From positions 1-34,915 of the forward strand of contig JAJEBU010000125.1 of NCBI GenBank assembly GCA_022822375.1: a stretch of 34,915 bases of DNA, in the 5' to 3' direction. Positions 30,486 to 34,901 of the stretch are shown here, one piece after another. The notes under the pieces are model-generated. The model did no database searches. It saw only the letters and a list, made by a program, of their open reading frames with translations, and had not been told where the DNA came from. A program made the translations under genes and the position numbers. Position 1 is the first letter of the stretch. Every line of letters starts with the position of its first letter. Source of the DNA: Dehalococcoidia bacterium (GTDB taxonomy: Bacteria > Chloroflexota > Dehalococcoidia > Bin125).

Positions 30486-31112
30486 GTGGCCGTACCAACG
30501 AACGCTCTGGAACTCACCAACGCGCTGATCGATTGCGATGTGCCGCGCGAGCCCGCAGAAGCGTTGGCTGCGAAGCTGGCCGAGAACTTCGGCTTGGCCG
30601 CGTCTGAGCAAGACCTCGACCGAAGGATCGCGTCGGAACGTGAGTTATCGGACGCGCGCTTTGAGGCGTTGTTGGATCGCATCGACGCCCGGTTCGAGCG
30701 CGCGGAAGCAGCAATGGACGCCCGCTTCGACGCGATGCAAGCAGAAATGGATGCCCGCTTTACTCATATGCAGGCAGAAATGGATTCCCGCTTCGCTCAG
30801 GTGGACGCCAGATTCGAGCAGATTGATGCCAGGTTCGAGCAGATTGATGCCCGCTTCGATGAGGCTCGGTCGGAGACCAAGACCCGCTTTGCTGAGGCTC
30901 AGTCGGCGACCAATACTCGCTTCGATGAGGCTCGGTCGGAGACCAAGACCCGCTTCGATGAGGCTCGGTCGGAGACCGATGTCCGCTTCCAACTCTATGA
31001 CGCCAAACACTACGCGCGCTTTGCCGAGTTCGAAGTCAAGGTCTATCGCGCCGTCGCCATTGGAACTGGTTTGGTCCTCGCGGCCATCTCGATCTGGGGC
31101 GCATTCGGCTAG
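30486..31112 (+). CDS. RF-repeat coiled-coil protein with C-terminal membrane anchor (CCDC90/DUF1640-like)
   Basis: The 208-residue protein has a small N-terminal head (VPREPAEALAAKLAENF), then residues 56-186 made only of short repeats each carrying an Arg-Phe pair. Phe occurs at 59, 70, 81, 92, 103, 110, 117, 124, 135, 146, 157, 168 and 179. A single C-terminal TM (about 188-205, VAIGTGLVLAAISIWGAF) anchors it. The head-coil-TM layout is that of bacterial CCDC90/DUF1640 proteins, whose role is unclear. Start is GTG 30486 with GAAGGG upstream. Near-identical DNA repeats of 33 bp suggest recent duplication. Confidence 0.85.
   Translation: MAVPTNALELTNALIDCDVPREPAEALAAKLAENFGLAASEQDLDRRIASERELSDARFEALLDRIDARFERAEAAMDARFDAMQAEMDARFTHMQAEMDSRFAQVDARFEQIDARFEQIDARFDEARSETKTRFAEAQSATNTRFDEARSETKTRFDEARSETDVRFQLYDAKHYARFAEFEVKVYRAVAIGTGLVLAAISIWGAFG
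30651..31043 (+). repeat. In-frame tandem repeats encoding 11- and 7-residue RF units
   Basis: Thirteen units follow the pattern 4 or 5 of eleven residues (e.g. DARFDAMQAEM), three of seven (DARFEQI), then eleven again (FDEARSETKTR). At the DNA level a 35-bp block starting TTCGATGAGGCTCGG occurs at 30855 and 30921, with a third, partly changed copy at 30954 (offset 33). Confidence 0.9.
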
Positions 31113-32151: not shown

Positions 32152-32742
32152 ATGGACCCTGTCACCACGTTTAGCGGCACTGGATTGCCGCTCGACCGCG
32201 CCGATGTCGACACCGACCAGATCATCCCGGCCAAGTATCTGAAACGGATCGAGCGGACCGGCTACGGACCGTTCGCATTCGAGGCCTGGGCTCAAGACCC
32301 CGACTTTGTCACCAATCAACCGCAGTTTCAGGGCGCGAGCGTGATGCTCGCCGGACCTAACTTCGGCTGCGGGTCGTCTCGCGAACACGCGGTCTGGGCC
32401 ATCCAGGGCATGGGTGTCCGTGCCGTGATCGCCCCCAGCTTCGCCGACATCTTCCGCAACAACTCGGCCAAGATGGGCTTGCTCACGATCCAGCTCGCCC
32501 AGTCCGACGTAGAAGAGCTGATGCGGATGGTGGAGTCAGAATCGAGCACGCCGATCACGGTGAGCCTGGCGGACCAGACCGTCACCGCACCCGGCGGCTG
32601 GCGGCGCAGCTTTGAGATTGCGCCGTTCGTCAAGCATTGTCTGCTCAACGGCCTTGACGACATATCGCTGACCCTCGAACACGACGACCTGATCGCCGAT
32701 TACGAGTCGAACCGTCCCTCGACGAAGCCGCTGACCGTCTAG
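32152..32742 (+). CDS. leuD: 3-isopropylmalate dehydratase small subunit
   Basis: The 196-residue protein isomerises 2- to 3-isopropylmalate with LeuC in leucine synthesis. Motifs are LDRADVDTDQIIPAKYLK, the substrate-specifying GPNFGCGSSREHAVWAI and APSFADIFRNNSAKMGLL. ATG 32152 has AGAGGATGA upstream; the open frame above it belongs to the hydrolase gene's shadow. leuC is not in the window. leuB follows about 1 kb later, separated by a nuclease remnant and three mini-genes. Confidence 0.96.
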   Translation: MDPVTTFSGTGLPLDRADVDTDQIIPAKYLKRIERTGYGPFAFEAWAQDPDFVTNQPQFQGASVMLAGPNFGCGSSREHAVWAIQGMGVRAVIAPSFADIFRNNSAKMGLLTIQLAQSDVEELMRMVESESSTPITVSLADQTVTAPGGWRRSFEIAPFVKHCLLNGLDDISLTLEHDDLIADYESNRPSTKPLTV

Positions 32743-33054
32743 GATCGACGCACGGTCCAAGCAGCAGTCAAGCCCAAGCTGGTCACACGGTCCGCGGAGG
32801 CAGAACCCGCGGGTGACCCGAGCGTGCTGCGCCTGCCTGAGGGCCTACTGACCGACGATCTGCTGATTGAGATCAGCACCCTGAATGAGCCGCTGCACTT
32901 CGAGCGCAGCCCGAAAGGAGCGCTGGAAATCGCTCCTCAACACGGAACGCATAGCGGTTACCGCGCCAGCCGAATCGCTGTTTGTCGCAATCGCGCCAGG
33001 CTGAGTACATGCCCAGGCAATCGCACCGGACTCCGTCCTTGCGCGACTCCATGA
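32743..33054 (+). pseudogene. Remnant of an Uma2-family (DUF820) nuclease
   Basis: Directly after the leuD stop, in the same frame and without a stop until 33054, is a fragment like the start of Uma2 PD-(D/E)xK proteins: LTDDLLIEISTLNEPLHFER followed by KGALEIAP and SGYRASRI, matching the usual xNxxLRxERxxxGxLxxMPP lead-in. The catalytic SPD...ExK half is missing and the similarity fades after about residue 70, where the frame runs under the first mini-gene. GTG 32824 is a possible start if any product is made. Inside it AGGAGCG/CGCTCCT (32916-32937) form a 7-bp inverted repeat. Confidence 0.4.
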
Positions 33055-33173
33055 TCAATCTGCGCCGCTCGATGAGCCGACGTCACGCGATCTACGGAAT
33101 CATCTCCAACACCTGGGTCAAGATGCGCAATGTCGACAACTGCTGTGGCGACTACGCCTCGGCAGATTGTTGA
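33009..33173 (+). CDS. Mini-protein A of a tandem three-cysteine family
   Basis: The 54-residue product starts MPRQSHRTPSLRDSMINLRR and ends NCCGDYASADC. It shares with copies B and C an N-terminal xxNLR segment, a central hydrophobic helix with Trp (TWVKMR) and the final CC....C. It is the most diverged copy, keeping all three Cys but losing the Gly-Pro of the motif. An in-frame upstream TTG/GTG extension is possible but the N-terminus then stops matching copy C. The ribosome site is weak (AGG 13 nt upstream). A stem-loop follows 13 nt after the stop. I do not recognise the family. Confidence 0.65.
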   Translation: MPRQSHRTPSLRDSMINLRRSMSRRHAIYGIISNTWVKMRNVDNCCGDYASADC

Positions 33174-33186
33174 GTGACTGGCGAAC

Positions 33187-33203
33187 GCGCTCGGGACGAG
33201 CGC
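33187..33203 (+). repeat. Stem-loop after mini-gene A
   Basis: GCGCTC-GGGAC-GAGCGC, a perfect 6-bp stem with a 5-nt loop, 13 nt after the stop codon. No T-tract follows. Confidence 0.6.
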
Positions 33204-33304
33204 ATGAAGTCCGAATACTGACGCCGGGCGCGTCGCTCGCGCACTGCGCGTGCCGCGAGCGGTATCATATGCGCTACGGAGTGGCTTCATGGGAAGGGGG
33301 GCGC

Positions 33305-33463
33305 ATGTGCGAAGGGCGACCTGAGCTGGGTGGATATGCGATCTCCAATCTGCGCAACGGTCAGGGAGTGTTTCACTTCCTACGCAGTGTGGTCGTCACC
33401 AACTGGATCAAATTGCGGAGACTCGAACAGTGTTGCGGTCGCTACGGCGACCCCGGCTGTTGA
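33305..33463 (+). CDS. Mini-protein B of a tandem three-cysteine family
   Basis: The 52-residue product starts MCEGRPELGGYAISNLR, has a hydrophobic middle (FLRSVVVTNWIKLRR) and ends QCCGRYGDPGC. ATG 33305 is chosen because GGGAAGGGGGG sits at a good distance upstream and copy C also begins MCE; an earlier in-frame ATG (33269) has no such site. The Trp-x-Lys/Arg-Leu-Arg run before the Cys motif is shared with copies A and C. Confidence 0.75.
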   Translation: MCEGRPELGGYAISNLRNGQGVFHFLRSVVVTNWIKLRRLEQCCGRYGDPGC

Positions 33464-33475
33464 ACCGGACCACCC

Positions 33476-33494
33476 GACGCTCAGGATGAGCGTC
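33476..33494 (+). repeat. Stem-loop after mini-gene B
   Basis: GACGCTCA-GGA-TGAGCGTC, a perfect 8-bp complementarity with a 3-nt loop (7 bp if the closing A-T opens), 12 nt after the stop codon. Core GCTC/GAGC is the same as in the other two. Confidence 0.6.
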
Positions 33495-33590
33495 CCGCAG
33501 ACGAGTAGACGGTCCAACCTTGACCGCTGCATTGGACGGCTACCCGAGCCTGCGACGCTGAAAGCGGTTCACGCTAGGTGGTGACCTACG

Positions 33591-33749
33591 ATGTGCGAGC
33601 GACCCAAGCCGTCCTTCAGCGACGCGATCGCTAACCTCCGTCGCGATGGCGATCAACGCAGCATCGCTCTCAGAATGCTCGAGATCGCCTGGGATAGATT
33701 GCGCAAGCGGCAGACCTGCTGCGGCAACTACGGCGCTCCAGGCTGTTGA
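33591..33749 (+). CDS. Mini-protein C of a tandem three-cysteine family
   Basis: The 52-residue product starts MCERPKPSFSDAIANLRR, has a helix IALRMLEIAWDRLRKR and ends TCCGNYGAPGC. AGGTGGTGA lies upstream of ATG 33591. Net positive charge, one Trp, and Cys only at residue 2 and in the C-terminal motif suggest a small helical protein with a metal-binding or thiol-reactive tail. It is 57 nt upstream of leuB. Confidence 0.75.
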   Translation: MCERPKPSFSDAIANLRRDGDQRSIALRMLEIAWDRLRKRQTCCGNYGAPGC

Positions 33750-33762
33750 GTGTCCCCGGAAC

Positions 33763-33779
33763 GCGCTCCGGGTGAGCGC
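33763..33779 (+). repeat. Stem-loop after mini-gene C
   Basis: GCGCTC-CGGGT-GAGCGC, a 6-bp perfect stem with a 5-nt loop, 13 nt after the stop codon and 27 nt before the leuB ATG. Confidence 0.6.
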
Positions 33780-33806
33780 CCCAACAACGAATAGGAACTG
33801 GTTCTC

Positions 33807-34901
33807 ATGGCCCACTTCAGGATTGCGCTGTTGCCCGGCGACGGCATCGGCGGCGAGGTCATCGGACAGGCGGTCCGCGTGCTCGACGCCGTCGGCGGAC
33901 GCTTCGACCACTCGTTTGAATACACCGAGGATCTCGTCGGCGGCGCCGCGATCGATGCGCACGGAGTCGCGCTGCGGGACGAAACACTGGCGATGTGTCA
34001 ATCCCAGGACGCCGTCCTGTTCGGAGCGGTCGGTGGACCGAAGTGGGATGATCCGAAGGCGTCGGTGCGTCCGGAGCAAGCCATTCTCGGCCTGCGCAAG
34101 GGGCTCGGCCTGTTCGCCAACATTCGGCCGGTCAAGATGCTGCCCATCCTGGCCGACGCCACGCCGCTCAAGCGGGAAACGGTGGAAGCGGTCGACATGG
34201 TCGTCCTGCGCGAGCTGACCGGCGGCATCTACTTCGGCGAGCCACAGCGCCGTTGGGAAGAGGACGGCCAGCGCAAAGCCGTCGACACGCTGGCCTACGC
34301 CGAGCACGAGGTCGAACGGATCGTGCGGCTCGGCTTCGAGACCGCGCGCGGACGCCGCAAGCTGCTGACCTCAGTGGACAAGGCCAACATCCTCGATACG
34401 TCACGCATGTGGCGCGAGATCACCGAAGAAGTCGCCAAGGACTATCCCGACGTCGCGCTCGAGCATCGCCTGGTCGACGCGTGCGCAATGGACTTGATCC
34501 GTCATCCGTCTTACTTCGATGTGATCGTGACCGAGAACATGTTCGGCGACATCCTGACCGACGAGGCTTCGATGCTCGCGGGATCGATGGGCATGCTGCC
34601 ATCGGCATCGCTGGGCGCCTCAGAGGATGGCTCAGCGCTTGGTCTCTACGAGCCGATCCACGGCACGGCGCCCGACATCGCGGGACAGGGCATTGCCAAT
34701 CCAATGGCGATGATCCTGAGCGCTGCCCTGATGTTGCGCTACTCGCTGGGCCTCGAGGCGGAGGCGGCGGCGATCGAAGCTGCCGTGACCGACATCCTGG
34801 CCGCCGGCCATCGCTCCGCCGATCTCGCAAGCGAGGGCGAGCAAGCGCTCGGCACCGAGGCGCTCGGCAGCCTGATCGCCGACAGCGTCGCCGGCGGGTG
34901 A
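33807..34901 (+). CDS. leuB: 3-isopropylmalate dehydrogenase
   Basis: The 364-residue, full-length enzyme oxidatively decarboxylates 3-isopropylmalate in leucine synthesis with NAD+. Motifs are [34 protein letters not shown] (substrate), the YAEHEVERI region, and [27 protein letters not shown] (split by eye) with metal Asp residues, then [19 protein letters not shown] lies 10 nt upstream of ATG 33807. It ends 14 nt before the window edge. Confidence 0.97.

Follow-up and report, generated by a model that had tools for sequence, protein, structure and literature searches.

What do three short open reading frames in a row between two leucine biosynthesis genes encode, and where do their products end? 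We addressed this question in a stretch of 34,915 nucleotides from the genome of a Dehalococcoidia bacterium (the window), in which ORFs A (33009-33173, 54 amino acids), B (33305-33463, 52 amino acids) and C (33591-33749, 52 amino acids) follow one another on the forward strand. Their arrangement is as the initial annotation described it, and Pfam confirmed the flanking genes, both also on the forward strand: leuD at 32152-32742 (PF00694 Aconitase_C, E 2.7e-28) and leuB at 33807-34901 (PF00180 Iso_dh, E 1.5e-134). Gene calls, start sites and neighbour names without such a Pfam check were read from translations. Two further observations concern the surroundings. Between leuD and gene A lies the relic of a Uma2-type (PF05685) gene (32755-32979), which shares 48% identity over 75 residues with the intact Uma2 gene (213 aa) found at the equivalent position in L044 and has lost about two thirds of its length. 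At 30486-31112 lies a 208-aa ORF without a Pfam match; it carries DARFE/ETKTRFDEARS repeats of heptad-like character and, at its C terminus, a hydrophobic segment.

The three ORFs had been read as diverged paralogues whose conserved cysteines indicate selection, and both claims hold. A search with query P0003 against its own genome retrieved B (E 5e-6) and A (E 2e-5), and N-L-R, W, R, CCG, Y and C are invariant across the copies. All three cysteines are present in every copy. The motif CCGxYGxPGC is complete in B and C, while A reads CCGDYASADC and has lost the GxPG part. Each of the 14 other genomes of the genus has orthologues, with one to three copies; for gene A itself, 12 genomes of the genus have an orthologue. 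Over 40 codons, pN/pS was 0.17 among orthologues of A, 0.20 among those of B, and 0.24 and 0.46 in two groups of C, with the window copy of A evolving faster (0.54 versus 0.17 among A orthologues). Since orthologues exist in all genomes of the genus and pN/pS is low, the ORFs are not chance frames; judged by these comparisons, all three are real and under purifying selection.

The initial annotation placed the cysteine motif at the C terminus. The motif is there, but it is probably not the protein end, since the UGA behind it bears every mark of a selenocysteine (Sec) codon. To collect relatives we scanned 84,980 genomes with the pattern CCGx[YH]GxPGC followed by a stop codon and obtained at least 116 stretches; the counts are lower bounds and biased towards members with the exact motif. 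UAA and UAG were permitted by the pattern, yet neither occurred among the matches listed: the codon after the motif was TGA at 147 of 150 sites, TAA and TAG at none, and TGG at three (L141, L171, L172), which are chance matches and not members. On the same contigs, 217 called neighbour genes terminate with TGA (46%), 182 with TAG and 70 with TAA; for the window's own genes the counts are TAG 14, TGA 8 and TAA 4. The naive probability of 147 TGA codons is about 6e-50, a figure that relatedness makes optimistic, though the pattern spans phyla.

Within the genus, pN over the 11 codons after the UGA was 0-0.09; in this tail, synonymous change reached about one half to two thirds of the body's level, with the codons of the hairpin described below nearly frozen. 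We also considered the open frame after the UGA as evidence and rejected it: such a frame was found in 85% of cases versus 87% at ordinary stops, and is uninformative because it is not unusual in GC-rich DNA. One Cys homologue was found (L205 in genome G111, the only genome of its class), in which TGC replaces TGA within ...FFANFHTYDAPFHVKLRMAFSNNLIKMRTRANCCGNHGQPGC-C-ATGSCSIGPEHPH and the core reads CCGNHGQPGC. No qualifying hairpin follows this TGC codon.

Insertion of Sec in bacteria depends on a SECIS hairpin, for which published rules (bSECIS) call for a loop of 3-9 nt with G in the first two positions, a stem of 4-16 bp, a distance of 16-37 nt from the UGA and a minimum free energy of at most -7.5 kcal/mol. 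Hairpins that satisfy these rules follow all three window ORFs. Behind the predicted Sec codon of A (33171-33173), the hairpin GCGCTCG-GGA-CGAGCGC (33187-33203, -10.7 kcal/mol) has its loop 20 nt after the UGA. The same loop distance was found for B (UGA at 33461-33463), where GACGCTCA-GGA-TGAGCGTC occupies 33476-33494 (-11.1 kcal/mol), while in C (UGA at 33747-33749) the loop of GCGCTC-CGGGT-GAGCGC (33763-33779, -8.8 kcal/mol) lies 19 nt downstream. Among the matches listed, 135 of the 137 members with a qualifying hairpin had a G in the first two loop positions and the hairpin 18-23 nt after the UGA, and 95 of 138 reached an energy of -7.5 kcal/mol or lower. Of the dinucleotide shuffles, 9% passed this cut-off, as did 17% of the hairpins at 224 ordinary TGA stops, where hairpin positions were evenly spread.

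Folding of single sequences gave no significant result (z -0.9 to -2.0), and we therefore relied on comparative tests. For 24 sequences taken outside the genus, the share of paired cells was 86.9% versus 62.7% after shuffling, with 40 double changes versus 14.8; the covariation score was 0.577 versus 0.161 (0/500 shuffles) and collapsed when the partner strand was slid. A covariance model built without the genus and scanned over the window gave A as second-best (14.2 bits) and C as third-best match (11.0 bits), both weak; it missed B and ranked one unrelated site first. Rfam returned three sub-threshold matches on 32900-33900, none of them a SECIS. The hairpin also outlasts the reading frame: in 19 members an ordinary stop lies 0-4 codons after the UGA, and 17 of these retain the hairpin in place, which indicates that the RNA is conserved where coding is impossible. 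Examples with a normal stop 0-3 codons past the Sec-UGA and a SECIS-like hairpin outside the frame are L113:5050-5193, L025, L026 and L087.

Could the UGA be an ordinary stop, with peptides ending in ...PGC and a hairpin that serves as a terminator or another 3' RNA signal? The frame does close soon after the UGA in every case, and GC-rich hairpins are common after genes. However, none of the 150 sites listed carries UAA or UAG, the three window hairpins lack a T-run behind them, the spacing is fixed, the amino acids after the UGA are constrained, and L205 has Cys at the UGA codon and lacks the hairpin. We regard this explanation as very improbable. Harder still to credit is a leader peptide or attenuator for leuB, akin to the Cys-rich upstream ORFs that sense amino acids. 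Such a role would suit short ORFs immediately 5' of leuB with runs of Cys codons, but there is no run of Leu codons, pN/pS is low along the whole peptide, the body is conserved across phyla and far from any regulatory tract, and elsewhere the gene lies upstream of unrelated genes and is not tied to one downstream operon.

The host appears able to decode UGA as Sec. Its genome contains SelA (515.8 bits), SelB (E 1.3e-96), tRNA-Sec (66.4 bits) and SelD; the active site of the latter (L203; contig C110, 7468-8409) is interrupted by an in-frame UGA (CGGUGSK), so that SelD is itself a selenoprotein. SelA was present in all but one of the 20 motif-positive genomes in the phylum sample (the exception being G188) and in 31 of 40 member genomes outside it, the member genomes that lack it being drafts, and was absent from both genomes with spurious motif matches (L126, L141). 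As SelA occurs in 321 of 400 genomes overall, this co-occurrence is a weak test and supportive only.

Taken together, the exclusive UGA, the covarying hairpin, the Cys homologue and the Sec machinery of the host argue for mini-selenoproteins. It is extremely probable, on this comparative evidence, that the UGA-containing genes encode bacterial selenoproteins, and we put the probability that A, B and C are tandem representatives of a new mini-selenoprotein family, with products of about 65-70 residues in the window, at roughly 0.9. The genes would then almost certainly end at 33221, 33508 and 33794 rather than at 33173, 33463 and 33749. Accordingly read, gene A (33009-33221) is predicted to encode MPRQSHRTPSLRDSMINLRRSMSRRHAIYGIISNTWVKMRNVDNCCGDYASADC-U-VTGERARDERMKSEY, with a decayed core motif and a retained SECIS; gene B (33305-33508) MCEGRPELGGYAISNLRNGQGVFHFLRSVVVTNWIKLRRLEQCCGRYGDPGC-U-TGPPDAQDERPADE; and gene C (33591-33794) MCERPKPSFSDAIANLRRDGDQRSIALRMLEIAWDRLRKRQTCCGNYGAPGC-U-VSPERAPGERPNNE, the predicted real stop of the latter being the TAG at 33792-33794, 12 nt upstream of leuB.

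Among the matches listed, members were found in Chloroflexota (Dehalococcoidia including SAR202, soil groups, Thermomicrobiales and Ardenticatenales), in Actinomycetota (many Acidimicrobiia, and Aquicultor), in Desulfobacterota and in Syntrophales, with single records labelled Armatimonadetes or Acidobacteria. No members were found in the viral contigs, plasmids or phages searched. Conservation of the core motif is partly by construction, since the scan pattern fixes it. Positions outside the pattern are conserved as well, counted from the UGA in the matches listed: N at -21 (74%), K/R at -17 (91%) and P at -32 (54%). The members are therefore homologues and not coincidences of the pattern. 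The family core appears to be CC-G-N-[YH]-G-x-P-G-C-U, followed by a variable tail. Of the 109 distinct members among the matches listed, 25 have a His-rich tail with at least two HxH, and several gene A copies of the genus have such a tail, for example HDHDHHHGHDHGHGHDHH. Among gene A orthologues (L010, L012, L016, L019-L021), the part after Sec ranges from about 15 to about 35 residues within this one genus, the longer tails being HDHDH repeats. In another Dehalococcoidia lineage (L080:367-932), two tandem copies with GNHG cores were observed; tandem duplication is thus not confined to the window's genus.

The initial annotation knew of no named family with this ending, and our searches agree. 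With ten read-through members, there was no NCBIfam match at E<=10 and no Pfam match above cut-off, the sole hit, below that cut-off, being DUF4417 (E 0.16) for a single member. A PDB profile search gave no match, and no literature on the motif letters was found. None of the 119 prokaryotic selenoprotein families inventoried in 2026 (PMC13188914), among them those of Haft and Gwadz 2023 and of Haft and Tolstoy 2025, is a CCGN[YH]GxPGCU family, and the new families reported with deep-Sep are different (PMC12013277). Gene callers systematically cut selenoproteins at the UGA and miss very small ones entirely. The family described here extends over at least three bacterial phyla, with three adjacent copies in one operon, and would add selenium use to the abundant uncultured SAR202 and other Dehalococcoidia, to soil Chloroflexota and to Acidimicrobiia.

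What might such a small protein do? Thiol or metal chemistry had been proposed from the cysteines; this chemistry is likely, but the proposal missed selenocysteine, that is, the UGA with its SECIS hairpin and a Cys-Sec pair followed by a tail. A short, basic, helical body would lead into the invariant core C-C-G-N-[YH]-G-x-P-G-C-U, where SelB and tRNA-Sec would decode the in-frame UGA as Sec, directed by the SECIS hairpin 18-23 nt downstream. The Cys-Sec pair could form a reversible selenylsulfide on a mobile arm, the second Cys pair, across the Gly/Pro-rich turn, could act as resolving or metal-binding partner, and cellular disulfide or flavin reductases might service this thiol/selenol centre. 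AlphaFold, run with 38 sequences, predicted two helices at low confidence (pLDDT 62). We give a redox tail as the main role about an even chance, based on the chemistry of the motif and a few neighbours. In L091 the gene for a pyridine-nucleotide disulfide oxidoreductase lies 50 nt upstream, L116 has a flavin reductase-rubredoxin as neighbour and L083 a flavodoxin, and PNPOx-like flavoproteins neighbour the members in L122 and L155. A RiPP precursor was also considered and rejected, as no maturase was recognised beside members.

The main rival of the redox role is a selenoprotein that binds soft metals or metalloids (Cu, Hg, As, Cd, Zn), in which CC...CU and the His-rich tail would form a chelating arm that serves trafficking or detoxification, a function already suggested for other selenoproteins with a vicinal Cys-Sec pair. 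Four thiol/selenol ligands within 11 residues and the His-rich tails of some members, several A copies of the genus among them, would fit such an arm, and a review links several CU and UxxC families with metal handling. Yet a His tail is missing from many members, those of the window among them, and no metal transporter, reductase or regulator recurs beside the gene. We consider a metal-binding role possible, if clearly less probable than a redox one.

The position of the genes had further suggested a partner of the Fe-S enzyme LeuCD. Placement within leuC-leuD-leuB does recur in several Dehalococcoidia lineages: the gene lies between leuD and leuB in the window's genus and in L040, L087 and L174, and between leuC and leuD in L125, L130, L176, L189 and L190. 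Elsewhere, leuCD is nearby on the opposite strand in Acidimicrobiia (L115, L161, L180), IDH-MDH lies upstream in L159, L169 and L184, and an IscS-like gene adjoins the member in L042. But the neighbours differ in most other lineages (hisA/YajQ/ilvE, pyrE, PepP-like, PNPOx, flavodoxin), and an operon position can be passively inherited. The leu association is real in one class but cannot carry a family-wide function. A Sec-dependent partner that protects or repairs the clusters of LeuCD or related hydratases and dehydrogenases, or supplies them with reducing power, is therefore unlikely. We are equally doubtful of the wider proposal, a broad uncatalogued family whose Cys-Sec tail would maintain or protect Fe-S hydratases of the LeuCD/aconitase type, with the SECIS of some lineages working outside the frame.

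Like known bacterial selenoproteins, the putative mini-selenoproteins combine an in-frame UGA, a hairpin with an apical-loop G within 16-37 nt, the Sec machinery of the host and a Cys homologue. Unlike them, for which the SECIS is described inside coding regions, the 19 early-stop members would have it outside the frame; members whose SECIS apparently lies past the stop codon make bacterial SECIS placement directly testable. The C-U pair is shared with KCU-star/DUF466 (NF033934), SaoC (NF040734), MbdU (NF045648) and Csac_0668-type 2Fe-2S proteins (CopZ form 2), vicinal Cys-Sec families in which it occurs in small or short-domain proteins. In contrast to all of these, the pair of the new family ends CCGN[YH]GxPGCU, before a variable, often His-rich tail, and the profile models of KCU-star/DUF466, SaoC and MbdU, of the CC/Se motif and of other NCBIfam selenoprotein families were not matched. 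GOS_B/C, OS_HP3-5, the CC/Se motif family NF041239 and deep-Sep DG/DW/DF are likewise finds with UGA and SECIS and without known domains; they differ by their listed Sec motifs, and their NCBIfam models were unmatched. The model for the proposed mechanism is high-molecular-weight thioredoxin reductase, which carries a flexible C-terminal Gly-Cys-Sec-Gly redox arm as part of a large flavoenzyme. Here the arm would belong to a free mini-protein. CCGN[YH]GxPGCU may offer chemistry a natural minimal Cys-Sec scaffold.
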